A stretch of 64,000 bases of DNA, taken from the NCBI GenBank assembly GCA_018398805.1, contig JAGFBZ010000015.1, positions 592,926 through 656,925 on the forward strand. Direction: 5' to 3'. The stretch comes from Hirundichthys speculiger (lineage: Eukaryota; Chordata; Actinopteri; Beloniformes; Exocoetidae). The position numbers and the translations under genes are program-made. The notes beneath the pieces were generated by a model. It searched no databases. It was given only the letters and a program-made list of their open reading frames with translations, and was not told the origin of the DNA. Every line of letters starts with the position of its first letter. The first letter of the stretch is position 1. Of the stretch, positions 36,193 to 64,000 are shown piece by piece.

Positions 36193-36920
36193 AGCCGGGC
36201 ATACACTGTGTGACTGTCGGCTCGTTTTGAGCCGATTTTCCAGTCGTGCGACTATTTTTTGGATCGGGCCGAATTTCGACCCTATCGTGGGTCGTGCTTC
36301 GTGCAGTATACGTGGGGTAACGACGAGAGATTAACACCTCCCGACGAGCTCCCGATCACAAATCGTGTGCTCGCAAGGAAATCAAACTTGTTTGAAATCC
36401 TGGTCACTCCTCGTGAAGGTATCTCACAGTAGAAGCAGTAGGTGCGTTTGAGATGAACTGCGGCTCGCCTGGCGAGGAGACGAGATCAGGCGGCCGCAGC
36501 AGGAGGTGGAGACAAAAAGCTGCAGTCACATCGGACAGTTACCAGCATACAGGAGGAGACACTTACTTCCTGTTAGGTCACCTGTATGTAGTTTACAGAC
36601 CACGTTCTTAGATAAAGTGTCCTCGATCGCTGATTGAAGTTAAAATAAAAGTGATCCTCCTGTTGCATGAAACGTGTTCTTATCTGCATTGTGCGCCGCC
36701 CGCGGTGATCGATTCTGCGCAGGCCTGGCTCATTTCGAAAGCACCCTTAGGTGCGTTATGAATGTATAGTGTAGCAGTCAAGTCGCATCAGAGCATCGGG
36801 CCGTACAGTGTGAGAGCATTACTCGTGGGCTGTGAACTTTTGAACTCAGCGATCTAGTCGTGCAGTTTGAGATAGGGCTGAATCAAACGATTTAAAATAT
36901 CGCACAATGTATGCCCGGCC
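36193..36920. mobile_element. Harbinger-like MITE in the palindrome
   Basis: The ends AGCCGGGCATACACTGTG and, on the minus strand, GGCCGGGCATACATTGTG form the inverted repeat. TTA occurs directly outside both (36190-36192 and 36921-36923), the usual PIF/Harbinger duplication. Excising it joins 'ggctTTA' to 'gtgtctttcata', the normal text of a satellite unit. Length is 728 bp with no transposase. Confidence 0.8.
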
Positions 36921-39023
36921 TTAGTGTCTTTCATAAGTAGGGACCAAAAATCCCGGGATATTTGGAACCCGGGATATTTGGGTCCCCCGGTTAGAACTAA
37001 CATTCTCTTCTCAAAATCACGTTTTTACTGCTTACCTGACAATTTTGGGACATCAACAGAACATTTTGAGTCGCGTTCAAAGGTTTGCATCAAACATGCT
37101 CTCATGTTTCATCACTTTATTGTCTTTCATAAGTGGGGACCAAAAATCCCAGGAAATTTGGGTCCCCCCATTAGAACTAACATTCTCTTCTCAAAATCAC
37201 GTTTTTACTGCTTACCTGACATTTTTGAGACATCAACAGAACATTTGAGTCGCGTTCAAAGACTTGCATCCAAAAAGATGTCATATTTCATCACTTTATT
37301 GTCTTTCATAAGGGGGGACCAAAAATCCCGGGATATTTGGAACCCGGGATATTTGGGTCCCCCATTAGAACTAACATTCTCTTCTCAAAATCACGTTTTT
37401 ACTGCTTACCTGACATTTTTGAGACATCAACAGAACATTTGAGTCGCGTTCAAAGACTTGCATCCAACATGATGTCATATTTCATCGCTTTAGTGTCTTT
37501 CATATGGGGGGGACCAAAAATCCCGGGATATTTGGGTCCCCCATTAGAACTAACATTCTCTTCTCAAAATCACATTTTTACTGCTTACCTGACATTTTTG
37601 AGACATCAACAGAACATTTGAGTCGCGTTCAAAGACTTGCATCCAAAAAGATGTCATATTTCATCACTTTATTGTCTTTCATAAGGGGGGACCAAAAATC
37701 CCGGGATATTTGGAACCCGGGATATTTGGGTCCCGCCATTAGAACTAACATTCTCTTCTCAAAATGACGTTTTTACTGCTTACCTGACATTTTTGAGACA
37801 TCAACAGAACATTTGAGTCGCGTTCAAAGACTTGCATCCAACATGATGTCATATTTCATCGCTTTAGTGTCTTTCATATGGGGGGGACCAAAAATCCCGG
37901 GATATTTGGGTCCCCCATTAGAACTAACATTCTCTTCTCAAAATCACGTTTTTACTGCTTACCTGACATTTTTGAGACATCAACAGAACATTTGAGTCGT
38001 GTTCAAAGGTTTGCATCCAACATGCTGTCATATTTCATCACTTTATTGTCTTTCATAAATGGGGACCAAAAATCCCGGGATATTTGGAACCCGGGATATT
38101 TGGGTCCCCCCATTAGAACTAACATTCTCTTCTCAAAATCACGTTTTTACTGCTTACCTGACATTTTTGAGACATCAACAGAACATTTTGAGTCGCGTTC
38201 AAAGGTTTGCATCAAACATGATGTCATATTTCATCACTTTATTGTCTTTCATAAGGGGGGACCAAAAATCCCGGGATATTTGGGTCCCCCCCATTAGAAC
38301 TAACATTCTCTTCTCAAAATCACGTTTTTACTGCTTACCTGACATTTTTGAGACATTAACAGAACATTTGAGTCGCGTTCAAAGACTTGCATCCAAAAAG
38401 ATGTCATATTTCATCACTTTATTGTCTTTCATAAGGGGGGACCAAAAATCCCGGGATATTTGGAACCCGGGATATTTGGGTCCCCCATTAGAACTAACAT
38501 TCTCTTCTCAAAATCACGTTTTTACTGCTTACCTGACATTTTTGAGACATCAACAGAACATTTGAGTCGCGTTCAAAGGTTGCATCCAACATGCTGTCAT
38601 ATTTCATCACTTTATTGTCTTTCATAAATGGGGACCAAAAATCCCGGGATATTTGGAACCCGGGATATTTGGGTCCCCCCCATTAGAACTAACATTCTCT
38701 TCTCAAAATCACGTTTTTACTGCTTACCTGACATTTTTGAGACATCAACAGAACATTTGAGTCGCGTTCAAAGGTTTGCATCCAACATGCTGTCATATTT
38801 CATCGCTTTATTGTCTTTCATATGGGGGGACCAAAAATCCCGGGATATTTGGGTCCCCCCCATTAGAACTAACATTCTCTTCCCAAAATCACGTTTTTAC
38901 TGCTTACCTGACATTTTTGAGACATCAACAGAACATTTTGAGTCGCGTTCAAAGGTTTGCATCAAACATGCTCTCATGTTTCATCACTTTATTGTCTTTC
39001 ATAAGGGGGGACCAAAAATCCCT
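36921..39023 (+). repeat. satellite array, plus orientation, alternating 180/195 bp units
   Basis: The landmark 'tgtctttcata' recurs at 37121, 37300, 37494, 37673, 37869, 38047, 38243, 38423, 38616, 38812 and 38993. Successive spacings are 179, 194, 179, 196, 178, 196, 180, 193, 196 and 181 bp, so short and long units mostly alternate and form a ~375-bp dimer. Long units differ by an extra copy of about 16 bp with cccgggatattt. Each unit carries a hairpin (ggggacc ... cccggg ... ggtcccc). Reading frames of up to 172 codons run through it only because of the repetition. Confidence 0.95.
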
Positions 39024-39029
39024 GGATAT

Positions 39030-40608
39030 TTGGTCCCCCCTTATGAAAGACAAAGCGATGAAATATGACATCTTTTTGGATGCAAACCTTTGAACGTGAC
39101 TCAAATGTTCTGTTGATGTCTCAAAAATGTCAGGTAAGCAGTAAAAACGTGATTTTGAGAAGAGAATGTTAGTTCTAATGGCGGGACCCAAATATCCCGG
39201 GATTTTTGGTCCCCCCTTATGAAAGACAATAAAGTGATGAAATATGACATCATGTTGGATGCAAGTCTTTGAACGCGACTCAAATGTTCTGTTGATGTCT
39301 CAAAAATGTCAGGTAAGCAGTAAAAACGTGATTTTGAGAAGAGAATGTTAGTTCTAATGGCGGGACCCAAATATCCCGGGTTCCAAATATCCCGGGATTT
39401 TTGGTCCCCACTTATGAAAGTGTGGCAAGGGACACTATGGAGGGCCCGGGCGGGATTTGATCCCCAGACTCCCAGGTGAGAGTCACGTGTGCTTGCCAGT
39501 CAGCCAAAGGGATATCCCTGTGGCCAAGTAGCCAGGACACGTGATCAATCGGAGGTATATAGTGACAGGACCCCCACACTGTCACAAAAGACAATAAAGT
39601 GATGAAATATGACAGCATGTTGGATGCAAACCTTTGAACGCGACTCAAATGTTCTGTTGATGTCTCAAAAATGTCAGGTAAGCAGTAAAAACGTGATTTT
39701 GAGAAGAGAATGTTAGTTCTAATGGGGGACCCAAATATCCCGGGATTTTTGGTCCCCCCTTATGAAAGACAATAAAGTGATGAAATATGACATCTTTTTG
39801 GATGCAAACCTTTGAACGCGACTCAAATGTTCTGTTGATGTCTCAAAAATGTCAGGTAAGCAGTAAAAACGTGATTTTGAGAAGAGAATGTTAGTTCTAA
39901 TGGCGGGACCCAAATATCCCGGGACCCAAATATCCCGGGATTTTTGGTCCCCCCATATGAAAGACAATAAAGTGATGAAATATGACATCATGTTGGATGC
40001 AAGTCTTTGAACGCGACTCAAATGTTCTGTTGATGTCTCAAAAATGTCAGGTAAGCAGTAAAAACGTGATTTTGAGAAGAGAATGTTAGTTCTAATGGCG
40101 GGACCCAAATATCCCGGGTTCCAAATATCCCGGGATTTTTGGTCCCCACTTATGAAAGACAATAAAGTTATGAAATATGACAGCATGTTGGATGCAAACC
40201 TTTGAACGCGACTCAAATGTTCTGTTGATGTCTCAAAAATGTCAGGTAAGCAGTAAAAACGTGATTTTGAGAAGAGAATGTTAGTTCTAATGGGGGACCC
40301 AAATATCCCGGGATTTTTGGTCCCCCCTTATGAAAGACAATAAAGTGATGAAATATGACAGCATGTTGGATGCAAGTCTTTGAACGCGACTCAAATGTTC
40401 TGTTGATGTCTCAAAAATGTCAGGTAAGCAGTAAAAACGTGATTTTGAGAAGAGAATGTTAGTTCTAATGGGGGACCCAAATATCCCGGGATTTTTGGTC
40501 CCCCCTTATGAAAGACAATAAAGTGATGAAATATGACATCTTTTTGGATGCAAACCTTTGAACGCGACTCAAATGTTCTGTTGATGTCTCAAAAATGTCA
40601 GGTAAGCA
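39030..40608 (-). repeat. satellite array, minus orientation
   Basis: This is the inverted half of the array: the same units ('tatgaaagacaataaagtga', 'aatgtcaggtaagcagtaaa') in reverse complement, about eight copies, one of them interrupted by the 39421-39586 insertion. Short and long hairpin versions are both present. Confidence 0.95.
39421..39586 (-). mobile_element. 166-bp tRNA-like insertion in a satellite unit
   Basis: It interrupts one unit between 'tatgaaag' and 'acaataaag', with AAAG on both sides (39417-39420 and 39587-39590). On the minus strand it has an A-box-like word (tggctgactggcaagcac) and a B-box-like word (ggggatcaaatcccg), so it looks tRNA-derived. Its outermost bases (tgtggca, tgtcaca) are also weakly inverted. 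It could be a SINE or a small DNA element. Confidence 0.6.
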
Positions 40609-41900: not shown

Positions 41901-44443
41901 ATGGCAGAGAAAAGGAAAATTACAGACATCCGGTCATTCTTTAGTGCTCCAAAATGCCAAGTAAGTAGAAAGACCCCAATGATATCAAGGGATTTTGATA
42001 AAGATGTCCATAAGAAAGGAATGAAATGCTTATGAAAATGTTTCATAATGGTTTCATCAGGCAAAGTCAAATCAGCTGAGCACAAAGAGACAGAGCCAGT
42101 CAGACAGAAGCATTGAGTCTCGGGTCAGTTTGTTTAGCTTTTGTTTATCAATGTTATGGAATAACATGAGTCTCTTATTTAGACTTATAGTATTGTAAAG
42201 ACAATACCCTTGTTCTGTTAAATTGTGTTTTATTTATATTTATAGGAGACAGACTTTCAGACAGAGTCAGGGAGAGTGGTGGAAGGGCCAGACAGAGAGC
42301 CTGAGACTTCAGATGACAGCAGGGACAGAGATGCAGCAGGTCATGAGGACCTTACTGTCAGCAGCAGCACCAGCACAGGGACAGGGGAAGGGGATACAGC
42401 ATGGTGTAGTTCAGACTCCAGTGACTGCACAAAACCATACCAACCACATCCCCAGTGTATAATAACACAAACCCTTGCTAATAAGACATTGACATTCCAG
42501 CAGAAATGGTTTCAGGATTTCCCATGGCTACATTACAGTCCATTGGTGAGAGGAGTCCTGTGTTTTTACTGCAGCAAAGGGTTCTCACACCAGTCCTCTT
42601 TTGGGCAAAAAGCTGATGTTGCTTTCATTAGTTCAGGCTTCAGGAATTGGAAAAAAGCCATTGAAAAATTCACAGGACACCAAAACTCTTAAGCCCACCG
42701 CCACTATGTAAGTGTGAGTGCACATCAGCCAAATCCAATCAGTGCCCAGTTGTCCAGCACATGGGGTAAACAGCAGGAGGTGGCAAGGCATTGCTTAAGG
42801 AAAATTGTTAGTTCTGTGCGGCATGTGGCAAGACAGGGACAAGCCTTAAGAGGCCACACTGATGAGAGTGGTAATCTGCATCAGCTCTTGCAACTTAGGG
42901 CAGAAGAGGATGATCCCATTTTGCTGAAGTGGCTAACAGAGCGCAAAACAATGTACACAAGCCCCAAACTGCAGAATGAAATTCTGAACATCATGGCCAA
43001 TACAATAATTCGAGGCATTGCAGCTGAAATTAAGGCTCTTCCCATTTTGCAGTTTTCAGTCATTATTGATGGTACTCAGGATGTTACTGGTGCTGAGCAG
43101 GAGAGTGTCTGTCTGCGCTATGTGGACCATGACCTTTTCCACATGAGGAGTTTGTTGGGCTATACAGGGTTTCTGAGACAACAGGTCAGGGCATTGCAAA
43201 GGTGGCAGCTGATGTTTTGTTGAGGCTTAATCTGCCAATGGCTGGTTTGCGTGGGCAGACTTATGATGCTGCTGCAAACATGGCAGGAAAGTATACAGGT
43301 GCACAGGCAATACTGAAGAGACAGCAGCCATTAGCCCTGTATGTACATTGTGGTGCACACTGTGTCAATCTGATAACACAAGCTGGCTGCTTTGCCTCAC
43401 CCCTGATCAGGGACTGCCTATTTTGGGTCCACCAGTTGGGCATCCTTTTTGGCCAGTCAGGGAAGTTCAAGAGCATGTTTGAAAACATTGCTACATCTGA
43501 ACATGCGCCTCTGACCACCTTGAAACCACTGTGCCCAACAAGGTGGACTGTTCGGAATTCAGCTATAATAGCTGTGCTAGGACAGTATTAGAGGGTACTC
43601 GGCAGCTTAGAGGAGATGGCAAAAAGCACATCTAAGACAGCCTCAACTGCCAGTGGCTTATTTCAGCACTTCAGCAAAGGTAAGACTGTGTTGGGCCTCA
43701 CACTTCCCTCTGCTGTTGTTGGAGCTGGAATGCCTTAACAGTATGCAGGCTGCAGTTAATCACGTGAGGTCTTCTTCTAAGGAAAAGAGAAATGACAAGA
43801 GCTACCTTGCATTGTATGAGAAAGCGACATCATTGGTTGACTCCACTGAAACCACTGACTCCATTCAGGTGACACATTTAAGTCACTTTGCAGGGAACGC
43901 AGTGGATCACTATAGGGCAGAGTTCTTCAAAGTGTTGGATAGCATGGAGGTTCAGTTTGGAGAACGCTTTGACCAGGAGAGTCTAAAGATTCTGCAAAAG
44001 GTAGAGAGTGCCCTCCTCACTGGGGAGTTAGATGATTCACTTGATCAGTACCCTAAGCTGAACAGAGCTTCTCTCTCTGTGCAGTTGCCCCTCTTTCGCA
44101 ACAAATACCCATGTATCAGCAGGGTGGAGGCAGCAGAGGTACTCAGGGGACTGCCAGTGGAGGTGCGGGGCTTGTTCGATCAGGTTGAGGTTCTCATCAG
44201 GATTTTGTTGGTGGTGCCTGTGTCTTCATGTGAAGCTGAGAGGAGTTTTAGACTTGAGTCGTCGTTTAAAGACGTCGTTTAAAGACCTGATTACGGGCTA
44301 CTATGGCGCAACAAAGACTGAACAATGTGGTCGTTTGTAATGTCCAGAAAGAGAGGCTGGACAAGCTGAGCATCAACATGATCTGTCAGGAGTTTCTTGG
44401 ATCCTGCAGCAACAAAAGAAGCACATTTGGTTCTTTTGTTTAG
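41901..44443 (+). pseudogene. hAT transposase (ZMYM1/DUF4371-like), broken
   Basis: The start is a small exon (MAEKRKITDIRSFFS, 41901-41960), followed by a 63-nt exon (42061-42123) and a long exon from 42246. The reading shows a TTF-type zinc finger (KWFQDFPWL, GVLCFYCSKG, RNWKKAIEKF). Next come the ribonuclease-H-like core (FSVIIDGTQDVTGAEQ, GQTYDAAANMAGKY, HCGAHCVNL) and the C-terminal hAT dimerisation motif (PVSSCEAERSF). A TAA interrupts it at 42690, and frames shift near 43165, 43590-43720 and 44250, where a 13-bp direct duplication of gtcgtttaaagac occurs. It resembles the ZMYM1-like hAT transposases common in fish. It would have served the surrounding 9.67 kb element and is now inactive. 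Confidence 0.88.
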
Positions 44444-47543: not shown

Positions 47544-50500
47544 ATGCTGTTCAAAGTGCAGTATAAAGGAAAGAAGAAGTACATCAAGCTACATGGAGCC
47601 TCTCACTCAGAATTTCTCAAGGAAGGTAAGTTCATATCTATGCTGCAGGTAGCCTAAAGGTTGTATATTGTGTCACCAGGACATTCATAATTAAATAACC
47701 TGTCTTTGGCTGTTGATGGAAGCAATGGACAGTCATTCTTAACTTAACTGAAAAACATATGCTCCCTACAGGTAAATAAACAGCTGGTCAAATTGACAGC
47801 TATTAAGACATATTATGTGTTCACTTTCATCCACTATACTAATGACATGTAATTTGTTTCCCCAGGTTGTTACAGGAGCAAAAATTTTACTGTAACACTA
47901 AATTGAACAATAATGCACTCAAGCTTCATTTATCTTTTTTTCTGTGTTCAAAGCTAAAATGAAGTTCAGTATACCTGCTGAAAAGGACATATATGTGCTG
48001 GATGACACTGGAACAGAGGTTGATGAGGAGGTCTTCAGCGACATCCTGGAGGAAAAATCTGACATCCAGTGGACGATTGTTGATGATCTTTCTGTCAGTG
48101 GTAAGTAGTCATTTGATCAAATTATACATTTCTGGCTTACACTATCGTAGGCAGAATTTGTTTTTTAGGCAGAATTTGTTTTTCATTATTTACAGAACCA
48201 ATCCAATTACTTATGAAAATATCAACCGATAAGAATACGGACCTTAGCACTTAGTTGCCACCAAGACTGTCTATCATAGCCTAAATTGTACGGTGGCCCT
48301 GAAGGGCAAACGACACCAACAAAAAGGAAAACACAACGACAAAAAGGAAAACACAACGACATTAACAAAAACACAACGACAAAAAGGAAAACACAACGAC
48401 ATTAACAAAAACACAACGACAAAAAGGAAAACACAACGACAAAAAGGAAAAAACACAACGACATTAACAAAAACACAACACGACATTAACAAAAACACGA
48501 CGACAAAAAGGAAAACACAACGACATTAACAAAAAACGACGACAAAAAGGAAACACAACGACATTAACAAAAACAAAAACAACGACAAAGAAAACAACAC
48601 CAAAAACACAACGACAAAAAGAAACACAACGACATTAACAAAAACACAACGACATTAACAAAAACACGACGACAAAAAGGAAAACACAACGACATTAACA
48701 AAAACACGACGACAAAAAGGAAAACACAACGACATTAACAAAAACACAACGACATTAACAAAAACACAACGACAAAAAGGAAAACACAACGACATTAACA
48801 AAAACACAACGACAAAAAGAAAAACACAACGACAAAAAGGAAAACACAACGACAAAAAGGAAAACACAACGACATTAACAAAAACACGACATTAACTTCT
48901 AACGGAAAGGGTAGGTACCTGCTATGACAAGGATCATTGCTGATTGGACGAAAGCACGTCAGTCTTTTTTAGTGGGTTTTTTTTCATGGACGTACTAGGG
49001 CTGAACGATTAATTGCATTTGCGATAATCTCGCGATATCATAAAACGAGATTTTCTAACCGCAAAGGCCGCGATATTACTGTCACGTGATCTGGCGACGA
49101 CACGTGACTTGCGAGTGAGCCCAGCCGAGCTGAGCAGAGCAAACAGGGCAAGCAGTGTTGTCAACTTAGCGACTTTCTAGTCCCCTCTAGCGACTTAATT
49201 TGTAGAAAGCGACTAGCGACAAATCTAGCGACTTTTTCTGGTGATTTAGAGACTCAAGCGCACTCAAACCGCTAGGTTTAGGCCGCCTCGCGAACCGCGC
49301 CTTTCTCTCTCTGTCGGGCACAGTGCACAGCCACAAACACCCCGCCCGCCGCGCGAGACAACTCGAGCTCCCCCCCCTTTTCCTTGCAAAAAATCTGTGA
49401 GCTCCCGAGATCTATACAGAAGAATCTTTCTGGCTAACAGTGCCATACTCATTTTGCACTTCAGTATGTTGTGTGCTGCTGTTACTGAGTAAATATAATA
49501 TTTCTATTAGTGTTCAAAAAGTTTTTTTTTGAAAATGTCCAATTGGTTAGAGCAGATATTTGTTCTTTATTTTCCTGTGTGATGTTACTGACTGGAGATC
49601 AGTAAGCTTTATTTTTTCTATATCTGTATATTTTATTTATTTATTTATACACTGTCCTGTCAATCTCAGACAGTGTTTAAGAAGTCCAGTCCACACGTTT
49701 ACATAAATGTTACACATGTTTCATGAAACGTGAAAAGTTAGATGTTGAAGAGGTAAAGCCACTGATTTGTTTGCTTTATTGTTGCAATCTGCACTTTAAA
49801 TAAATCTGATATTGTTTATTATGACAGTGTTTAAAAAAATACATGAGAAGAAGACCTTAAAAATAATCGCATATTAAATCGCAATCGCAATTTTGAGGAA
49901 AAAAATCGCAATTAGATTATTTTCCAAAATCGTTCAGCCCTAGGACGTACTAAGAGAACGGTTTTTAAAGCTGCTTTACGCCATAACACCTTGTATACGG
50001 CTCGGGCGGACTTCATTTTGAAGCGTCAAAATGTATTGCCCTAACTGTGGTGAGAAGGTCCCTAAAGACTTCCATAAACCTAAATTTTGCTGTGGTTGTG
50101 GCAAGGGGCTTGTCGTTGAACCCACCGACGGACCGCCTTCAGGTAAGTTAACACATGTAACGTAAATTGTTGCTAATTGAGTAGTGAACGTGTTTCTCAG
50201 ACCTGCTAGTCCGCAGGCTACAAGAAAAATATTGAAAACCATGTACTCTGGCCCTTTATTGGTGTATAGCCGGCAATAGAGCAGCGGTCCCCAAGACCGG
50301 TACCGGTCTGTGGGTCATTTGGTACCGGGCCGCACAGAAAGAATGAATAACTTACATTATTTCAGTTTTATTTATTATCCGAGTCTGAACGATGTTTTAT
50401 TATTTTATTATTTTGAAAAATGACCGGATTATCTCTGTTACATCTGTCTAATGACTCCCTCTGGATGCATGTCAAGACGCTTGTCTCGGTCACGTGATAT

Positions 50501-53500
50501 GTGTCCGTTAAATTTAAACCCACAAGCTAGCAAAATAAGTAAAAAACCAACGTCTCGTTCCAGAGCAACAAGCTCAGGGCTCCCACTGATTCAGCGTTGT
50601 GGTGAATTGTATTTTTCACGCACTTTATATTTGTTGTGTATCTTATTTTGAAGACATGTTTAAACGTTACCATAGCGACCAGAGTGTTACGGAGCAGAGA
50701 GGATGTTACTCATGTTATGTTGTTAGCGCTATGTTATGAGGACGCTGCTAATAAAGTTGCATACAAGTACACAGTGGATTCACGTTTATTATAATATTTA
50801 GAAAATACCACAGTCTTAATGCCGGTCATATCATTTTATTTTGTTGTACTTATCTGCCACACCTTAAAGGCCGGTCCGTGAAAATATTGTCTGACATTAA
50901 ACCGGTCCGTGGTGCAAAAAAAGGTTGGGGACCGCTGATACAGAGTACAACGATTTCTAGTAGGAAGATAGGAAATTTCTCTCCGTTTGATAACTGTTGA
51001 AGTAAAGTAAAGTAAGTAAAGTTGCTAATTAAAAAAACAAAAAACAAGTCAAAATAGAGCCGAGCAACAGGGAGCTTGGAGCGAAGGTAGTGGGAATGGC
51101 ATTACATGTTCTTTTTAGATGTGTTAAAATGGTATAATGTCATTACAGTTGTACTGAAAATGTACTGTACTGTTACACGGGCAGCCAAATGCCCATGCTG
51201 CGCCCCAGTTGTACTGGGAGTTTGGGAATTTCAATACGTTATGTCTACTCGGTCTTTACTCTGCCAGCTAACGTTAGTAAGTAAGCCTGGGTGTCCGAAA
51301 CCTGTGTGAACTTTGTTTTGTAACCAGGTTAACACAAGTCAGGAGTTTGTGTTTGAAAACAGCCCATGTCTCCCACCAGTCCTGAAAACATTAGGGGAAA
51401 ATCCTGTGTAGTCTAGCCATGTATTTTGTTTATACCACTATTGTTGTATTTATGCACCTCTAATAAGCACGCATTTTTCGTTTGCTTCCCTGTAGTATCA
51501 CAGAATCCTCCATCGAATCCAACCCCATTGATAAAAAACCTTCCAGGAATACAGGAAGGAAAAGGCAGAGGAAAGGCAAAAATTTTGCTTTGGTAAAATG
51601 GGGACAAAGAAAAAGGAAAAGAGGAACGTTCAGGTAAGAGTAAGGTGACAACAGGCAACCCTCTAAACATGAGCCTCATAGGGCAAATTTAATGACAACT
51701 GATATATTTGGATAAATATATAATTATTTAATATATATATATACACTAATAGGCTTTTGTGTTATAGTCAATTAACTCTCAAAACAGCATTTAATTTCTT
51801 GTTTTACCTTTTTTTTAATAACTGATTTCTGATCATAAATATCAAATGTTGGGTAGGCTACTGTGGAAGAGAAATAGTTTTTTTGAAGCAATTATATGGC
51901 CAAGATCAATCATAAGTATTTTTGTTTTCCAAAAGTACCTCCCAACTCTGCTGTTTACTAGAATAATTAAAGATCCAATTAGCAAACTAAATGTAACATT
52001 TGCCAGCCTTGTTACAGCGAAACAATCACTTTTGAAATAAGCATCGCTCTTTAATCTAGATGTAGAATCACCCTGTGTTTTCTATTGCAGATAAATCTTG
52101 GCTTGATGACTGCTCAGAAATGTGGTCTAAAGCCACTACGTGGGAAAACACTTTCCTTGACAACAGACCCTGACAGCACTGCTCAAAGTCTTCTTCATCA
52201 GGCTGTGAAAAAAATGAGGGACTTCAACAGAGATTTGGATGAAGGACCCTTCGTCCTTCTTTATCCAGATGGATCTGAAGTCATCAATACCCCTGGGACA
52301 CAAAGACCTTTTATTCTAAAAGAATACAAGGCAGAACTAGGCAAAACATATCAAAGAATCACCATTTTCATCTGCTCTAAGAAGGACTTTGAAGAATGTA
52401 AGTGTTTTTAACTAGCTACTGTAACTCCTGTAATACCACTGTAAATAAGCAGAGATCAGACCTTGAGCCAAAACCAGTTGCTTCTGGCACAGTGTGTCAA
52501 GGTGACTTTCCATTTGGCACTTTCTCTTAGATTTAGCAACATTTTAAATCTTTATCATTAAATGAAAGTGGAGTGTTTGTGACCGCCTTGTGGTTAGGGA
52601 TCTGGGGTTCTAAATGGAACCCTGGAACGCTATATGTTTGATCAAGTGACAACCACCATTCTGCCCCTGAGCAAGGAAGTTAGCCGTTATCGCTCCCTGT
52701 ACATAAGAGTGTCTGTCAAGTGATGTATTATTGTAAATAATGACTACAGTTAAGACTTCAATGCCAGTGTGAATTGTTTTGTGTTTCACAGTTGGAAAAG
52801 TGGAAGACATTTCTGACTCCGACCCTGAGATTTTCATAAAAAGACCCACAGACTTTGATCTAGCTGACACACTGGTGAGTGCAACACATTTATTTATTTA
52901 AAAAGAACAATTTTGAAAGATATTCAGTAGTGGTCGGGGGTTTTAATGGTTGATGCTAATATTTAGAGAGCTGAGCAGCCATACCCATATATATGAAGTT
53001 ACACCATTGGTCAGCAGCATTCTGCTACTTCCTGTATCCATTTCAAATTAAAAGACCCATGTTTCAATCATATGCTAGGTTTTGATCCGGTCTTGTTGTT
53101 TATTGCCCTAATCTGAGAGGATTATCTCAAAATACCAGATTAAGCGGTTTCACAAGTATTAGGGAATTAACTTTTGTATTTTCATATATAATGTGTTATT
53201 GTTTTTTTGTTTTACTACAGCCAGTCCAACCTCAGCATGAAAGCAGCCCCATACCAAAAGTTCCAGAAATGGGGTAAATTTTTTGCTCTTACTCAATGCA
53301 TGTTTTTAGTTTTTGAGAAGTCCACAATATATTGTGATTGGACCCTTGCAACCTTCTGTTGTGCTACTTTTCACATCAAAGCGGATCCACCTGCACATCT
53401 AGCCCTCTCCCAACTAAGCTAATCACTTTTCCACAGTCATGTCATTGTCATATCCATATCCATATTGCCATTCATGGCAAACATTCATGCACTAACTTTT

Positions 53501-56500
53501 TAATTTCTGTTTGTTTTCAAGCAGCTCTTCAGGGGCACCAGATCAGGCTGTAATGGAAGAGGTAGTTAGGCTGATTTTATTGTTTATTATCAATGTGAAA
53601 CTTTCTTATAATTACACATTTTAGTACTATTAATACATTAGTTACAGACTACTGATTACTGTAGACAATGTAGACATTGCCATTAGACTATTAGGTTAAA
53701 TCAAATAAAAAACGATTACTATTAGACATTACTGTAATGTAATGTACAATTACAGCACAACTTTCACGCAGTATGTGATATATTCTTTTTTTCCATATTT
53801 ATGCTGACACGTTAATCTCAAATCAGGTGTTTATTTTGGACACTGATGACCCATTGGAGTGCAACTCTGGAGGACGAAAGAAGACTACTTCAAGGTAGTG
53901 AAGTAGCCATTGGGCTTTTTGTCATATTATTACACTAGGCAGATACCCTACATTAATGATCATTGTTTAGTGTTGCAGATGCAGCCATTGCCACTGCAAC
54001 TACTGTGAGGACAAAGGAAAACACATTGTACAGGTAGTGTTTCTTTTTCAGGTTTCAGCACACTTTCAAACACTCACTGTCATGTATCTAACCATAAATT
54101 GTTAATAGATAAGAGATTCATATATTTGTTATTTGCAGCAAGTACACAGAGTTGTATGCTCCGATTGTAATTGAGGATAATGAGGACGACAGTCAAGATT
54201 GTGATGTTATACCTATAAGCAGTGACCCTGCAAAAACAGCCAAGTAAGTATTATTGTCTGGAATTTTGTCAACTTAAAAGTTTGTGTCTTATTAGAGGTA
54301 GTCTTTGAACCTTTTTTAATACCATTGTAAAGTCAGAAGATATTTAAAAGGACCACATCAGTGCTTTTGGACATGGCAAGCTATATATCATGTTTATTGA
54401 AAAACCTACACCAGTAAAAATAATAAAGAAAATAATCATTTGGAGAATGGACATTTTAGTGAAGTAGGAGATGTCTTGTGTAAAGGGGTCCAGCAAGTTC
54501 AGACTAATGTTTAACTTGGAAATGTATCTTTTTTGTGGACAAACCAGTTCAAATGCAAAATAGTACTCTATCGTGTTAAACATAATCAAATGCTTTTTCG
54601 ACTCTTTTCTGTACATTGTAAAAATTATAAAACACGGAAACATATTCCATAGTATCTTGGAGAAGTGATTAAGTATTTTATATACTTCTTGATTCTATTC
54701 TTTTGTATCTATTGTTATAGGGACACAGTATATCTGCAGCCATGATCATTGCAGAATTAGCAGATGCCATTGACCACAAAACTGTCAGCAGATTCAATAT
54801 CACACGCTCAAACGTTGGGGATGGAGCATTCAGAGGGTTCAGACGCTCAAGCTTCTCTGAAAAATTGGATTTGCTTGTGAAGTTCAGTGATGATGCAGGC
54901 TCCTCTGAGGAAGGAATAGACACTGGAGGTCCAAAGCGAGAATTTCTGACACTTTTAATGAGCCAGTTGCAGTCTCGACCCGTTTTTCAAGGACCCCCGG
55001 AGAGCCGGTACTTGGTGTACAATGCTACAGGTTTGTTGTCAGCCCCAGACCTTGATTAGTTTGATGCAAGACAGTAAACAATGCAATCATCAATCAAATG
55101 TTCTTTCTGATTCCTACAGATACTGAATTTATACTTGTTGTAATGTGATGTACTATAGCTCCCTTACTGAATGAAGGTTGTTTTTCACCCTGTGCATCCC
55201 CCAGCAATCAGAGAGGATGAATATTGCTTGGCAGGGAAGATGATAGCTGTGTCCGTAGTTCATAGAGGACCAGGCCCACATTTTCTCTCCAGGGACCTGG
55301 TGAACCATATTGTTGGACAACCTGGTTTCTGTGCAAATGTGAAAGATGTGACAGATGATGAGATAGGGAGAGCTCTTAATGAGTTATGACACAGAGACTA
55401 CACTGGTCATTGTCATAAATGTATTGTTTATTGAAATGCTTATAAGCGCAGTATTTCTAATAGAGTTTACAGTAGAGACCCTCATGCAAATATGTGTAGA
55501 GAAACACTATAATACTCAAATTATGTATGCATTACTAAAAAGATTGAAACCACATTCCTCTATGTAACTACATTTAAAAGGTTTCTGTTAATTTTGTCTT
55601 GGCTTTAAAATATAATTTATCTGAATTGACTGTTGTATATATTCTTCCACTCTGTTTTGGTCTATCTCTCTCTCTCTCGCTCTCTCCCTCTCTGTGTCTC
55701 TGTCTCTGTCTCCCATTCAGATTGAGCTGGCAGATTCTTTGGCGTCTCTGCAAGACGTATTACTGAAGCACAGCTCCTTGCTTCAAACTGCTGGATGCTT
55801 CAGGCAAGTCAACTCTGTGGAAGACAGACACGCAGTTGTGGCAGAATACCTTAAATGGTACATCATTGACAGAAATTACAGTGCAATTGAAAGGTAAGGC
55901 TGGATGTCTTTTGAATGATTGTGTTGAATGGGGAAGTTAATCATCAAAATCCAATGGGGCCCCTGCCTTATACTACAGACTGCAGCTTTAATGCTGCTAC
56001 TACTTCAAATAAATAATAAGGATAATGTCATATATCATTTAAATTTCAGCGGCCATGTTATCAGGTTAGAGCAGCCACACTGCCTGCGTGAGACGTGTCT
56101 CTGGTGTGCCTATGTTAATGAAAATTAAGACAATATTCAAAAAAATCTGTGAAACAGTATGCAGTGCGTTGCAGGGATAAAACAAACACTGCATATGGCC
56201 TGAAATAATATACCAACAGTAATTACCTTGTATTTTGTAACAAAAAAAATGTACAATGTGTTTTACTGCCTGCAACCATTCACTAATCTGTATCCTTTAA
56301 TAGATTCAAACAAGGACTAGCCAGCCTGCACTTTCTTGATGCCCTTTGCCAACATCCCAGTGTACTGGCTCCAGTGCTGTGTCACATGGACAAGAGGCTG
56401 ACTGCTACAGAACTTCAACAACTCTTTAGGCCACAGCTCAGTGTAGCAGGGAGCAACAGGAGAACAACAGAAAACTTGGCACTCAGTTTCTGGGGAGACT

Positions 56501-59500
56501 ATATTCTGGACTGTGAAGGTTTGTGAGTAAAATACAGTTCTGATAAGATATTAAAATCTGATTTTACATGAATTGAAATGTATGTAATGACTGCTCTTTT
56601 TACAGAACAAGGACCTGTGTCACTGGAGGAGGTGTTCATGTTTTCCACAGGCCTGAAGTCAATCCCACCTGCAGGAATGATGCCCCATCCATGCATCACA
56701 TTTACACAGGAGTCCATGTATCCCTTAGCAAATACATGCGCCAACACAATCACACTTCCACTCTTGCAAACATACAATCTTTTCAAAGCAAATATGGACT
56801 TCGGTATTCTAAACTCGCCAGGTTTTGGTAGTCTCTGAAAAGTGTGGAAGACAGAATAAGTTATAAAGGCTAGAAAGTTCTAAGTTCAGCCTGAATTGGT
56901 CTTTTGTGTCAAACTAAAGTTTTGAGAACTTTGAGAAGGAGTAAAGTCAGTTGACTCATTTTCTAGTCAACACTCTGAGTGGGGAAAAAGGCAAGGTATG
57001 CATCGATCATGATGTTTCATATGTTCTTTACTCAACAGTTGCAATAAACAAGTTGGCCAATAACAGATCGTGTTCTGGGATGTGGTTGAGTCCATTTTTG
57101 TATATTGGTGCATACTTATAGCCCGGCTATTTCCTTCAGAGAAAGGTATAGTTCTGAAGCTGACTCCCAATCATGTGGCTGCTGTAATCCATTTTGTTCC
57201 ACCACCTGTTGAAGATAATCCTGAATGTCAGGATTACTGCATAGATAGATAGTTTGTCTTGACTCAGGAAAGCTATGTAGTTCCCCATCTTCAACAGCAA
57301 ATCCACAGTCTCTTGAACCAAACCTGCAGAGTGAAAGAACTATATAATTCAAAATGAAAGGAAAACATGTCCCTAGGATTTGGAAAATGCAGTTTCAAAT
57401 TATTATTCTTACTTTGATTTTGCTACTTCATAGACAAAAATGTGAAGGTAAACAAAGGCAGCCACAACTAGCCTATAAATTAAAGGTTATAATTTGCCTA
57501 CACCTGTAATAATCCAAATGTATTTCCCATGCCTAATGTGCTATAATACAACACTTTGCATTTTTCTAAGAATGTATATGTTCACTTCATTCTGAGTTGA
57601 GATTACCGGTGAGGTAAGAGATACAGTTCATTTGGAATCCCCCCAGGACATGATGCAAGTCTGGAGCATCGAATCCTGTGCTTGTTCCAGAGGTCGGTGC
57701 ATTCATCTAGGTCTTTCTGCAGAACATCTTTGAAGCAGAATCTCACCAAGTCCTGGTGTTCATTGCTGCCATTAAACTGCCCAGAATTTCTAAGGTCTCC
57801 AAACAGGTCCATCCAAAATTGAGCTCTGGAATAAATTAAATACAAGGTTGCTTATTATACAAGTTCAGAACATCAGGATTGAATGACTGAATAAAGTTTT
57901 AACACAGGTATGTCCAGGCGGATTGTGTGAATGCTTAGGCCTACATGGAAGGGCAATAGACTTAATGTACAAGTGCATATGACTTTATATTGATATTTAT
58001 ATCAATATAAAAATTGATTGATATAATATCAATATAAACAATAAATATAATATCAACTAACCCTTTACAACAGTCCTCTATTTACATCCTATTAGCCCTT
58101 ACGTGAGTGTTTACTGTTGCTATGGCAACACGCGATAGCATATTTTCATTTTATAACAGTAGACATATATTATTCATCAATGTATAGCCAACTATAAGGC
58201 TTGAGGTAAGGCCTATAGGGTCCCAAGTGACAAAACAGTATTTTTAATCCATCAAAAAGAAATATACCAACCTTCCTTTCCTGAAAAAGGACCACCATGA
58301 CTCGATACGCTGATTCCCTGTTGATGAGCCATAACTGTGGCTTGACGAGCCTGCATAGTAGTCGGTATGCTCATGGCGGAGGGTACATTGTATTGCTGCC
58401 ATTGTCCCATTTTCTGTTCCGAAATCAGTTCTGAGTCTCATTGGGATCACACCCACATTCTTGGCACAATTAATATAATTGTGCGCGATGACAGACGGGT
58501 CGTTGTTGGTAGCCCCGCAAACAAGCCACATGATTCGTCTTGAGAAGCCATCAATACATCCTGAGAGGGCCAGGCCAAATGGTTTCAACTTGTCGTAGCC
58601 GTTCTACGTGCCAAATGTAGTTTGGTCCCATGGAGTGATATGTTCGTCTGATAAACCTCCGGCGTGTTCTCAGATACGTCCCTTGTGGATTGAGTTCTTT
58701 CAACAATCTCATAACTACAGCACGTTTAACACGTAGCTTGTGTTTTTCCTTTAGTACTTGCCACATAGTCCGATAGCCGAACATTTGCCCGGGGTCCACG
58801 CAGCTCTGTCAGTATGGCTCGTCTCACCTGAGCGAGTGGTGAATAATTCTTTCTCCGACACAACCTTGCTTCTCTTAACCGTATTTTAAGAGTGCGAACA
58901 CTCATCGTGATGTTGTGAAAGGTGGACAGCATGTCAACTATCACCTCGTATGTATGCCCTGCATCAAAAATAATGCCTAATAACTTGTTCTGTAGTAGCC
59001 ATCTCCAAATACACTTGACTGTAGACCACAGATGTGGGCGGGGCCCTTCCCCACCTTTTAAACATACTGACGTGCTTTCGTCCAATCTGCAATGATCCTT
59101 GTCATAGCAGGTACCTACCCTTTCCGTTAGAAGTTAATGTCGTTGTGTTTTTGTTAATGTCGTTGTGTTTTTGTTAATGTCGTTGTGTTTTCCTTTTTGT
59201 CGTTGTGTTTTTGTTAATGTCATTGTGTTTTCCTTTTTGTCGTCGTGTTTTTGTTAATGTCGTTGTGTTTTCCTTTTTGTCGTCGTGTTTTTGTTAATGT
59301 CGTTGTGTTTTCCTTTTTGTTGTGTTTTGGTTAATGTCGTTGTGTTTTTGTTAATGTCGTTGTGTTTTTTGTTAATGTCGTTGTGTTTTGTTGTCGTTTT
59401 TTGTCGTTGTGTTTTTGTTAATGTCGTTGTGTTTTTCCTTTTTGTCGTTGTGTTTTGTTAATGTCGTTGTGTTTTCCTTTTTGTCGTTGTGTTTTTGTTA

Positions 59501-62500
59501 ATGTCGTTGTGTTTTCCTTTTTGTTAATGTCGTTGTGTTTTTTTTTGTCTTGTGTTTTTGTTAATGTCTTGTGTTTCCTTTTGTCGTTGTGTTTTTGTTA
59601 ATGTCGTTGTGTTTTCCTTTTTGTCGTTGTGTTTTTGTTAATGTCGTTGTGTTTTTGTTAATGTCGTTGTGTTTTTGTTAATGTCGTTGTGTTTTCCTTT
59701 TTGTCGTTGTGTTTTGTTTTTGTTTTTGTTGTTTTTGTTTGTCGTTGTGTTTTTTGTTAATGTCGTTTTGTTTTGTCGTTGTGTTTTGTTAATGTCGTTG
59801 TTTTCCTTTTGTCGTTGTGTTTTGTTAATGTCGTTGTGTTTTCCTTTTTGTCGTTGTGTTTTTGTTAATGTCGTTGTGTTTTTGTTAATGTCGTTGTGTT
59901 TTTGTTAATGTCGTTGTGTTTTCCTTTTTGTCGTTGTGTTTTTGTTAATGTCGTGTTTTCCTTTTTGTCGTTGTGTTTTTGTTAATGTCGTTGTGTTTTC
60001 CTTTTTGTTGGTGTCGTTTGCCCTTCAGGGCCACCGTAAAAGTGCTTTCGTCCAATCAGCAATGATCCTTGTCATAGCAGGTACCTACCCTTTCCGTTAG
60101 AAGTTAATGTCGTGTTTTTGTTAATGTCGTTGTGTTTTCCTTTTTGTCGTTGTGTTTTCCTTTTTGTTGTTGTGTTTTCCTTTTTGTCGTTGTGTTTTTG
60201 TTAATGTCGTTGTGTTTTCCTTTTTGTCGTTGTGTTTTTGTTAATGTCGTTGTGTTTTTGTTAATGTCGTTGTGTTTTCCTTTTTGTCGTTGTCGTGTGT
60301 GTTTTTGTTAATGTCGTTGTGTTTTTCCTTTTGTCGTCGTGTTTGTGTTTTTGTTAATGTCGTTGTGTTTTTTTGTTTGTTTTTTTGTCGTTGTGGTTTT
60401 GTTTTTGTTTTTTTGTTAATGTCGTTGTGTTTTCCTTTTTGTTCGTCGTGTTTTTGTTAATGTCGTTGTTTTTTTGTTTTTGTCCTTTTGTTGTGTTTTT
60501 GTTAATGTCGTTGTGTTTTCCTTTTTGTCGTCGTGTTTGTTGTTAATGTCGTTGTGTTTTCCTTTTTGTCGTTGTGTTTTTTGTTTAATGTCGTTTGTGT
60601 TTTTGTTAATGTCGTTGTGTTTTTGTTAATGTCGTTGTGTTTTCCTTTTTGTCGTTGTGTTTTTGTTAATGTCGTTGTGTTTTCCTTTTTGTCGTTGTGT
60701 TTTTGTTAATGTCGTTGTGTTTTCGTTGTGTTTTCCTTTTTGTCGTCGTTGTGTTTTTGTTAATGTCGTTTTTTTTGTTTTTCGTTTGTCGTTGTGTTTG
60801 TTTTAATGTCGTTGTGTTTTTTTTGTCGTTGTGTTTTTGTTAATGTCGTTGTGTTTTCCTTTTTGTCGTTGTGTTTTTGTTAATGTCGTTGTGTTTTTGT
60901 TAATGTCGTTGTGTTTTTTTTTGTCGTTGTGTTTTTGTTAATGTCGTTGTGTTTTTGTTTTGTTTGTCGTGTTTTTTTTGTGTCGTTTTTTTGTTAATGT
61001 CGTTGTGTTTTCCTTTTTGTCGTTGTGTTTTTGTTAATGTCGTTTGTGTTTCCTTTTTGTCGTTGTGTTTTTGTTAATGTCGTTTGTGTTTTCCTTTTTG
61101 TCGTTGTGTTTTTGTTAATGTCGTTGTGTTTTTTTTGTCGTTGTGTTTTGTTAATGTCGTTGTGTTTTCCTTTTTGTCGTTGTGTTTTTGTTAATGTCGT
61201 GTTTTCCTTTTTGTCGTTGTGTTTTTGTTAATGTCGTTGTGTTTTCCTTTTTGTTGGTGTCGTTTGCCCTTCAGGGCCACCGTAAAATTGCCCTAAAATA
61301 TAGCGAAATTAACCACCAAAACTGATGTAGTCTATTAATGGTTTATAAATGAAAGACATATGCACAGTTTCACCATATCTTTCCACGCTCTCACCTCTGA
61401 TTTGAAACTGTGGGTCAATTAATGAAATCAGATGTGAAATTTGTTTTTTAAAGTTATGTGTTTCCTCTTTTCAGACTCTCCTGCATCCTCATGCACAGAC
61501 ACCTTGTCACTGTCATCGCGCTCGTCGGATAGTGATGCTTTTCTGATGTCTCCCAAAAGACAGCGCATCAATGATTGCATTCTGAACTCCCCAAATAGTC
61601 AGCATGTTGTTGACAGTTCTTCACAAGGCAAAGAGGTGATATTTTTTGTACATTCCTTCTTATGATGTAAATAATGTGTTTTTGGAGTGGGGGTGATCTT
61701 AGTTATTTATTTTTCTTGTTTTCAAGCTTGTCAAGAGACTTCTGGAACAAAAGCCTGGAGGGGACAAAATACTTGCAGAATATGCGACTAAAGGACAGAT
61801 GAAGGACCGAACACGCCGTGAACTTGTCAACATTGTTGTCGCTGATATGTTGGAAAAGTGTTGGTAAGTAAAATGCTTCCAAGGTGCATGATTTAGTTAA
61901 AGGCATATTCATAGTATTTGATTGCAAACATGTTGTTCATGAAAAACATGCGATGGAGTTTCTTGCCATCAATGCAACCTATTCCATTACACCTACAGGA
62001 GTACGCCACCAAAGGACAAGAGGACACAATATGCGTTGGGGATTATAACACTGTTCCCCTCCCTAAGAGATCCCTATTCCAAGCAGGGCTATGTGAGTAA
62101 AGTTTTTCATTGAGAAGTTCCCCAACTTGTCAAATTATTGCAATATAAAAGTTATTGTTTCCTATTAGTAATATACACAGATGTTGTTGTACAGGCAGCA
62201 AGTGGGCACTTAACATTCTTGAAATTGACAGCCAAGTCTGGACTGTATTTAGTGCAATGTTTTGGTTCTAAATCTTGTTGGTAAATGATTAATGTTTTGA
62301 TGCATTTTCCTTTCACTAGGTGTCTAATCATGCTTAAATTTCTTTTATTTTCAACTTAGGAGCATTTCTTTGATGCAAAGAGCAATGAGGGTTACATTGC
62401 GTGGAAACTGAAAAACACACAGCGAGGACTTAGTTCTGGCAGTAGAGTCAGGAGAAGGACCTCTCAAACCGCAGAGGGCAGTGGACCAGAGTTGAAGAGA

Positions 62501-64000
62501 GAAGTGATAAAAGATCAGCAGCTGGAGGGAGACCAGTGTTGTGAGGCTATATCTCTACTGAAGCACAGCACAGACAAAGACCAGATCTTCATGAAAATGA
62601 GAGCAACCTTCCAGTACAGGCAAAAGGTTGATCCATGATCCAGAGCAATGCAGCACAGTGCTTACAGTTTTCCCGAGGTTCCTTGACACAGAAGGCTTGG
62701 TAAGTCCGCATTATGTCGATAATGTATTTTCTGTCAAACACAGCTTTGTTTAGATGAAATTGGTAATTTCCCCCTTCTTTCACCATCATCACGTCCACCT
62801 ATACTTGCTTCCCCCTATAGGTTCTGCAAGATTTTGCTCTTTTATTTGGAGCAGAGACTTCATCCAAACTCTTGGAGAAATGGGGAACAACCCTGAAGGC
62901 AAAAGTAATAGAGCAAGCGAAAACCCTCAGTAAGACACCGATGCTCGACTATCTCATTCAGTGTGCAGAGGAGAACCCTGACGAGGATGATGAGGTCCCA
63001 GGTAAATGACAAAAAAGAATAACCTGTGTATATCCGGCCCCCTTTTTTCAAGTGTTGTCTTATTGTATTTACTCTAACACCATTGTGCTGATAGATTATA
63101 TATTTTTTTCTATTTTTAAAAACCTTTTGGATGTTTATATTGATTTATCAGGTGCATTTCGTACTGAAATCAGGTTTTCTCCTCTCTTCTTCTCAGGTTG
63201 GGATGGTGACATGGCGGCAATTCTACTGCTGGTCTACCTTTTGCCACCAAATGGTAAGAAGGGGACTGTGAAGATCAATATCCAGGAAGCTGTGCATCGT
63301 GTAGTGAAGTTTCATAAGGTCAGTGTGGTCTGATTTCCATTTTTAAACCATCCAATGTGCAAGAGTGGAACCCTGACTCCAAACACACGTTTTGACCAAT
63401 TGTTATAATATAAACCGCAATAGATTAGTGTTGCATGATACCCACGATATCCTGCAGAGCCAAAATCACAGTTCCTACTAAACCAGAAATTCTACACAAC
63501 GGTACTACCGTGGATCACTATACTACTGCTGAACGCGGTGCCAGTTTTCGCTGCGTAGTGGACTGGCATTACTCTCCTCCAGGCTCCTGTTCTCACTACA
63601 TGCTGTTCTAATGTAAACAAACACACGTGGCACATAATTTAATCAATTGCACACATTTCTAACCAGTCAGCTTTACTGGTCCATACATTGTCTTTTCCAT
63701 TTTTAAGTAATCCTCCAACTGTGCTATTAAAGATTTCTGTCTGACATATCCATAGAAATTGGATGTATAATGTAGTTGTACTTTTGATTCTTATGTTACC
63801 GTCGGGTCGCAGCCTGCATGCGCACTCTGGTCCAGACAAGCGGAGGCAGCCCTACATCCTGGCAGTTGGCTTGACAAGAAACAGCATCCATGAGTACTAC
63901 ATCGCAATGGATGGTGAGCTCCTTCCCTGCAAGGCCAAGTCTTCCCTGTCAGCCTTCGATGAACTTTTCAAGGCACATTACGTGTTTGGCATCTCGTATG
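47544..64000 (+). CDS. SAMD3-like protein with CIDE-N-like N-terminus; partial and probably disrupted
   Basis: Coding exons: 47544-47625, 47954-48100, 61475-61635, 61727-61863, 61999-62092, 62360-62699, 62821-63001, 63197-63318, then one from about 63800 past the window end. Junction phases agree up to 63318. The N-terminus ([13 protein letters not shown] ... [15 protein letters not shown]) looks like a CIDE-N or PB1-type ubiquitin-like fold. Later motifs ([42 protein letters not shown]) match, from memory, fish proteins annotated 'sterile alpha motif domain-containing protein 3-like', a large family of unknown function. An extra G near 62627 shifts the frame to a stop within three codons. 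The last exon lacks an AG acceptor in the right phase. A 13 kb transposon fills intron 2. This copy may be a pseudogene. Confidence 0.65.
48289..48962 (+). repeat. left terminal arm with minisatellite
   Basis: The 19-bp terminal word is followed by about 30 units of two alternating kinds, (aaaaaggaaaacacaacgac) and (attaacaaaaacacaacgac). Both end in acacaacgac. The arm closes with about 70 bp of unique sequence ending 'gcacgtcagt'. Subterminal repeat arrays of this kind are often transposase-binding regions; that role is inferred. Confidence 0.93.
48996..49942. mobile_element. hAT MITE inside the IS3EU-like element
   Basis: Perfect 8-bp duplication GGACGTAC (48988-48995 and 49943-49950). 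Both ends read TAGGGCTGAACGATT. Length is 947 bp, without a transposase. It separates the left arm from the HECT gene start; without it the start codon would lie about 80 bp inside the arm. Confidence 0.95.
50031..56838 (+). CDS. HECT-type E3 ubiquitin ligase (G2E3-like) carried by the transposon
   Basis: Exons: 50031-50142, 51504-51633, 52091-52397, 52792-52874, 53221-53273, 53525-53561, 53827-53894, 53979-54033, 54143-54243, 54729-55030, 55205-55387, 55721-55893, 56304-56518, 56606-56838. About 680 residues: an N-terminal zinc ribbon (C3-x2-C6, C20-x2-C23), a Lys/Arg-rich stretch, a ubiquitin-like region ([17 protein letters not shown]) and a short Cys/His cluster ([10 protein letters not shown]). 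The HECT domain follows, from [12 protein letters not shown] and [14 protein letters not shown] to [13 protein letters not shown], ending [15 protein letters not shown]. The candidate catalytic Cys is codon 56737-56739. HECT enzymes take ubiquitin on that Cys and pass it to substrates. The phase between exons 2 and 3 does not fit, and the donor after 55387 is TT instead of GT, so the copy may be slightly damaged. The closest annotated relatives I recall are fish G2E3-like proteins. Confidence 0.8.
50245..51490. other. first intron of the HECT gene, with an old inverted-repeat element
   Basis: Words at 50282-50335 ('agcggtccccaagaccggta', 'cggtctgtgggtcatttggt') and, inverted, at 50869-50940 ('ggccggtccgtgaaaatatt', 'aaaggttggggaccgctgat') form the ends of a ~660-bp non-autonomous DNA element. 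The pattern (cagcggtccccaa) is typical of hAT MITEs. Flanks 'caatagag' and 'atacagag' match only partly. Confidence 0.6.
55640..55716. repeat. (TC)n tract before a HECT exon
   Basis: An imperfect CT/GT-rich microsatellite runs into the polypyrimidine tract and AG of the exon at 55721. Confidence 0.85.
57043..57048 (+). terminator. candidate polyadenylation signal of the HECT gene
   Basis: AATAAA lies 205 bp after the HECT stop and 68 bp before the stop codon of the convergent integrase gene, so it would end transcription in the short gap between the two genes. Confidence 0.4.
57116..59085 (-). pseudogene. IS3-like integrase/transposase, frameshifted
   Basis: Exons: from about 59085 to 58272, 57825-57607 and 57323-57116, with good GT-AG sites. 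The start of the first exon is unclear. The N-terminal part ([40 protein letters not shown]) is helix-turn-helix-like, followed by [16 protein letters not shown], the IS3-type region ahead of the rve core. The core has candidate acidic residues in [19 protein letters not shown] and [11 protein letters not shown], a D-D-E arrangement. A one-base C insertion near 58790 and a one-base A insertion near 58590 break the frame, the second exactly at the first catalytic Asp. The C-terminal exons ([18 protein letters not shown]) remain open. It is presumably the enzyme of the 13 kb element, now dead in this copy. Confidence 0.85.
59068..60041 (-). repeat. right terminal arm, inner copy
   Basis: Inverse of the left arm: unique edge (gtgctttcgtccaatctgca), then minisatellite units (gttaatgtcgttgtgttttt, cctttttgtcgttgtgtttt), then the 19-bp terminus and TA at 60041. 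It is directly followed by a second copy beginning again with gtgctttcgtccaatcagca. Confidence 0.92.
60042..61284 (-). repeat. right terminal arm, outer copy
   Basis: A tandem repeat of the preceding arm, longer (1,243 bp) and with more unit-length variation. Its terminus is the one that abuts the AAATTG duplication, so it is the end used at insertion. Open frames rich in Phe, Cys and Val run through both arms and are not genes. Confidence 0.92.
63320..63800. other. intron of the SAMD3-like gene
   Basis: No coding sequence. Words such as 'tagtgttgcatgatacccac' near 63426 suggest an old hAT-type insertion. Its end at about 63800 is where an AG acceptor would be expected but the text reads 'gttaccgtcgggtcgcagcc'. 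Confidence 0.4.

Follow-up and report, generated by a model that had tools for sequence, protein, structure and literature searches.

A predicted HECT ubiquitin ligase gene as the likely partner of an IS3EU-type transposon in Hirundichthys speculiger

The element and its two genes

A transposon carrying two genes was identified in a 64,000-nucleotide stretch of Hirundichthys speculiger (Exocoetidae) DNA, hereafter the window (GenBank assembly GCA_018398805.1, contig JAGFBZ010000015.1, positions 592,926 to 656,925 of the forward strand). The genes lie tail to tail, with a gene predicted to encode a HECT ubiquitin ligase on the + strand and an integrase-like transposase gene on the − strand, and the ligase gene probably belongs to the transposon family as a permanent partner. 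The element spans 12,996 bp (48289–61284) and displays a 6-bp target site duplication (TSD), AAATTG, on both sides. Its inverted termini TACGGTGGCCCTGAAGGGC read TACGG..CCGTA, one starting at 48289 and the other ending at 61284. When the flanks of the element were joined and matched against the same 1.04-Gb genome, paralogous host sequence was retrieved across the junction on C1295, C1970, C111, and C601. Three of these host copies were read (L044–L046), and each holds a single AAATTG at the junction and no element. Because the empty paralogous sites contain the hexamer once, the element is a real insertion into repeated host sequence and the duplication is not coincidental; the borders given in an earlier note, which described a single TSD-bounded element, proved exact. 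The host sequence around the element, whose flanks have the four paralogous matches, looks like an intron within a repeated gene that is spliced (Table 1).

The assignment of the ligase gene draws on several lines of prediction. The joined HECT exons of the window score 52.5 bits against PF00632, above the cut-off, a structure model predicts a HECT fold, and the catalytic Cys, whose preserved context the earlier note had pointed out, is invariant across 46 aligned HECT homologues. The nearest HECT protein match, from Sparus aurata, displays 90% identity, and full-length homologous proteins join a zinc ribbon, a beta-grasp domain, and HECT. The transposase core scores 52.3 bits against PF24764 (rva_4), and its D..D..E residues align in the transposases of nine loci. 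The two convergent spliced genes of the earlier description are both recovered.

Since the transposase core is spread over three frames and the HECT exon ending at 55383 lacks a GT donor, the window copy is broken; the core forms a single open frame in copy C299, and the donor is present in copy C323. The right end of the window copy is also duplicated, with the TSD using the outer of two blocks, whereas C323, the other 13-kb copy, closes with one right-end block. The element as first described thus stands for its ends and its gene pair, and is amended for its duplicated right end, a probable nested insertion near the left end, and the broken state of both genes. A further copy, C370 (L019/L020), possesses a right end with an inverted left-end copy of 2,144 bp at 99.3%, including the HECT-side zinc-ribbon exon; this foldback end is comparable to the duplicated right end of the window.

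Pairing of the two genes across copies and lineages

To survey the pairing, transposase loci were gathered with the window transposase core and with PF24764, and HECT loci with PF00632, the window HECT, and the HECT of C2010. These searches score the best candidates only, so pairs are undercounted. Among 140 merged loci retrieved with the window core, 82 have a convergent HECT within 15 kb, 3 have one on the same strand, and none was found at 55; about 0.6 pairings would be expected by chance. The best 60 of the 140 comprise 48 convergent cases, no same-strand case, and 12 without a detected HECT. Adding the PF24764 search gave 87 convergent cases among 194 loci, with 4 in another arrangement and 103 with none found. 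The earlier note had named, as the finding that would speak for a one-off insertion, other copies lacking the HECT gene and that gene being single-copy elsewhere; these counts run the other way. One locus scored as unpaired, C679, contains a HECT-like fragment. It belongs with C535 to a fourth transposase group (L040 and L041), in which fragment and transposase share one strand instead of lying tail to tail.

Both ends were read in 11 copies (window, C323, C299, C370, C234, C469, C223, C1475, C2010, C544, and C519), and both genes lie inside the ends in all 11, with the HECT of C469 partial and with gene content in C544 and C519 judged from matches to the transposase core and the window HECT between the ends. 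A perfect 6-bp TSD flanks eight: window AAATTG, C323 GAAATG, C299 CTTCCT, C370 GAAACG, C234 GGTATA, C1475 CAGATC, C2010 GTTCTA, and C544 CAGATG. The TSD of C469 matches at 5 of 6 positions, and C223 and C519 possess no clean 6-bp TSD. The check proposed in the earlier note, on non-orthologous copies, thus returned the same pair within ends each time. The termini are TACGG in seven copies (window, C323, C299, C370, C234, C469, and C2010), TATGG in C223, C519, and C544, and TATGA in C1475, which shares TA but not TAYGG. Terminal inverted repeats (TIRs) exceed 30 bp in the window, C299, C370, C234, C469, C223, C1475, and C2010. Six other loci were read, and no paired ends were found there.

These figures bear on whether separate genes or nested elements merely lie side by side, a reading for which the loci where HECT or transposase has no detected partner could be cited. 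With 82 of 140 pairs convergent and one TSD enclosing both genes in every copy with both ends read, such a neighbourhood by chance is very improbable. Genome-wide, the 19-bp terminus itself was matched 119 times on each strand when up to 2 mismatches were allowed, versus 2 and 1 for a reversed control. From 100 termini listed, 40 +/− pairs were formed, 38 of them spanning 0.3–5.6 kb; the other two are long, with 13,156 bp in C323 and, measured to the inner right end, 11,750 bp in the window.

By their transposase cores, nine loci divide into group A (C323, which is the sister of the window, C299, C737, and C469b), group B (C223, C1475, and C2590), and group C (C536 and C2010). HECT distances recover the same three groups (Mantel r 0.59, with 1 of 20,000 permutations reaching it). 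The nearer pair differs, being A–C by transposase and A–B by HECT, a mismatch that, with three groups only, fits unequal rates as well as exchange. Group-C HECT sequences were missed in the first searches because they are strongly diverged. Judged from its presence in three diverged transposase lineages of one genome, the pairing appears to be old, and the recent one-off form of the host-gene capture raised in the earlier note is not supported. Outside this genome, a protein from the limpet Patella caerulea (P0255) displays 43% identity to the C2010 HECT, and in Triplophysa rosa a HECT (P0112) and a transposase (P0163), each listed with a 51,121-base contig, probably share one contig. In Dallia pectoralis, a predicted 203-aa protein (P0284), in which the transposase core runs straight into the HECT C-terminus, probably reflects a gene model that spans a rearranged element. 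Within group B, the PF24764 score is an identical 272.1 bits at eight places (C223 and seven more), each with a 286-aa open frame, and C519 and C976 have right ends that agree with C223 at 99.6–99.9%; the group-B element has undergone a recent burst.

Selection, a common zinc ribbon, and a proposed mechanism

Between the subfamilies represented by C299 and C737, the ratio of nonsynonymous to synonymous substitution (dN/dS) is 0.16 for HECT and 0.23 for transposase, and HECT is under purifying selection between the two. The window and C299 differ by a HECT dN of 0.29 at a dS of ~2. The ratios for the window versus C323 are 0.49 and 0.59, from a very close pair with few changes that is little informative.

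A scan of 16 loci with one zinc-ribbon motif located the ribbon near the start of both genes at 6, on the HECT side only at 2 (window and C323), on the transposase side only at 1, and on neither at 7. The two ribbon exons of a locus agree at 82 of 90 bases in C469 and 81 of 90 in C725, and at 47–49 of 90 in C299, C370, C234, and C737. In C469, both lie within the inverted repeat of ~0.41–0.46 kb. With its first exon inside the TIR, an element has a direct way of equipping both its proteins with one address. In the set of listed homologues with an initial Met and a length of 380 aa or more, the ribbon is present in 16 of 92 HECT proteins and 27 of 46 transposases.

The reading we prefer, to which we give an even chance, is that the window holds a broken IS3EU-type copy whose second gene, a predicted HECT ligase likely serving the element's own transposition, would act in trans via its zinc ribbon. 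The N-terminal ribbon, which the transposase of several copies has too, would recruit the ligase either to the ends of the element or to a partner shared with the transposase. The HECT domain would then ubiquitylate a protein bound at the ends, leading to its removal. The most likely substrate would be a silencing factor of the host, the alternative being the transposase once strand transfer has taken place. The ends, TSD, empty site, gene order, predicted HECT fold with its invariant Cys, purifying selection in two subfamilies, and common ribbon are observed, and the ligase's activity, recruitment, substrate, and effect are inferred.

Several observations weigh against this proposal. No HECT was found at the 55 unpaired loci mentioned above (103 with the PF24764 search); of the 12 such loci in the top 60, 3 were read, and HECT was absent in all three, none of which is an element with both ends plus an open transposase. 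Groups B and C yielded no zinc ribbon, with 0 of the 16 group-C HECT proteins listed having it. Finally, in the group formed by C469, C209, C725, and C469b, HECT is partly missing and has a dN/dS of 0.69–2.34 on 78–230 codons; there, the ligase either is not needed in cis or has already disappeared. The transposases of this group have a dN/dS of 0.40–0.54. Given this contrast between subfamilies, HECT is being kept in some and lost in one.

The same decay could be expected of a passenger, meaning a HECT gene captured long ago and carried along with no function in transposition, or with one for the host. Short copies would also agree, as they have moved although too small to hold both genes (judged by size only, 38 of the 40 listed terminal pairs are at most 5.6 kb). 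We nonetheless consider a passenger doubtful, as the position and orientation of HECT are constant over three diverged lineages and the gene is under purifying selection in two subfamilies. Self-limiting control, in which the ligase tags the transposase of its own element for destruction and holds the copy rate at a level that the host tolerates, seems to us just as doubtful. The two proteins could meet, given one element and the same ribbon on both at 6 of 16 loci, and release from control would fit the one subfamily that is losing HECT while its transposase stays constrained. A self-inhibitor, however, should often be lost by selection among copies, whereas here three lineages carry HECT, and the comparison of C299 with C737 shows it to be constrained.

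Extending the preferred reading, in which the ligase serves transposition, we tentatively suggest, as a possibility we hold with less than even confidence, that animal IS3EU elements constitute a two-protein transposition system. Transposase and HECT ligase would be directed to the same ends through a zinc ribbon duplicated within or close to the inverted repeats, ubiquitin ligation would be a step of transposition or of silencing escape, and much of the fish 'G2E3-like' family would be this transposon gene. If the ligase does serve the element, ubiquitin tagging would enter how a transposon jumps or escapes silencing.

Besides the element, the window contains a piggyBac-type transposase gene, a decayed hAT-like stretch, and a tandem repeat (Table 1).

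Table 1. Features of the element and its surroundings in the window
Feature	Position	Strand	Remark
Left TSD, AAATTG	48283–48288		Read directly; single in three paralogous empty sites
Left TIR	48289–48896	+	Array of ~20-bp units, TACGG end
Probable nested insertion	48983–49946		No counterpart in C323 copy
Probable first ligase exon, zinc ribbon CPNCG..FCCGCG	50031–50142	+	Splice phase to next exon unfitting by eye
Ligase exon, predicted beta-grasp (ubiquitin-like) domain	52091–52397	+	Structure model pLDDT (predicted local distance difference test) 90.6
Ligase linker exons	52792–54243	+	Assigned by eye
HECT-domain exons	54721–55030, 55205–55383, 55721–55893, 56304–56518, 56606–56838	+	PF00632
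Transposase gene with frame breaks	57116–59133	−	PF24764 core 58271–58603; C-terminal exons 57603–57851, 57116–57394
Inner right-end block	59073–60038	−	Own CCGTA end, at 60029–60038
Outer (second) right-end block	60041–61284	−	CCGTA end used by TSD
Right TSD, AAATTG	61285–61290		Read directly; single in three paralogous empty sites
Repeated host gene around element	~48000–48102, 61475–63320
piggyBac-type transposase gene	9776–11458	−	560-aa frame, DDE_Tnp_1_7 (PF13843) 295.7 bits; looks open
Overlapping frames resembling decayed hAT transposase	42246–44282	+	hAT dimerisation match weak, below Pfam cut-off
Tandemly repeated coding-like stretch	36882–40327	both	Frames such as SKSRFYCLPDIFETSTEHLSRVQR

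Comparison with known systems

IS3EU elements are described as having TAYGG..CCRTA ends, a TIR of >30 bp, a 6-bp TSD, and an integrase-like DDE transposase (PMC10045372, PMC12730594). The window family shares all of these features, with a DDD/E transposase, and its ends, TSD, and transposase type fit IS3EU when matched by description rather than against Repbase consensus sequences, which agrees with the link drawn in the earlier note. The difference lies in the second gene, which is a predicted HECT E3 ligase here, versus an alpha-kinase in opposite orientation to the transposase in fungal members, some of which also carry TET/JBP dioxygenases (PMC10045372, PMC12730594). The fungal TET dioxygenases are thought to counter methylation (PMC12730594). 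Neither a link between IS3EU and HECT nor a transposon-borne HECT gene was found in the literature, a search that lay outside Repbase, where an entry may include the gene. The HECT ligase as second gene would be what is new here, the IS3EU-type ends, TSD, and transposase being already known.

Many of the homologues are named after G2E3, a vertebrate HECT ligase with N-terminal PHD-type fingers. The likeness is the C-terminal HECT; the proteins considered here differ in an N-terminal zinc ribbon and a beta-grasp-like domain, and their genes lie in transposons. In a Pfam scan of two homologues, of 120 listed, PHD was absent up to E = 10; P0039 matched zinc-ribbon models and HECT, and P0002 matched HECT only. 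Many fish genes annotated as 'G2/M phase-specific E3 ubiquitin-protein ligase-like' are probably this transposon gene.

VANC proteins, the sequence-specific anti-silencing proteins of Arabidopsis VANDAL elements (PMC5735166, PMC10398659), offer a model of how such a gene may work, as element-encoded accessory proteins that counter host silencing. VANC is no ligase, and the likeness is one of proposed role.

Ginger1 likewise combines an integrase-like DDE transposase with a ubiquitin-pathway module in a DNA transposon, in the form of an OTU or Ulp1 protease fused to the transposase C-terminus that removes ubiquitin or SUMO, and has a TSD of 4 bp (PMC2836005). In the present family, the module is a separate gene predicted to add ubiquitin, and the TSD is 6 bp in eight copies rather than 4 bp. 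The ubiquitin pathway was proposed to take part in transposition on the strength of the Ulp1 and OTU domains that Ginger1 carries (PMC2836005). The opposite chemistry predicted for the present, related family points to the same pathway. A family that keeps its own ubiquitin ligase over three lineages would offer a natural, genetically separable system for ubiquitin's control of transposition or silencing.
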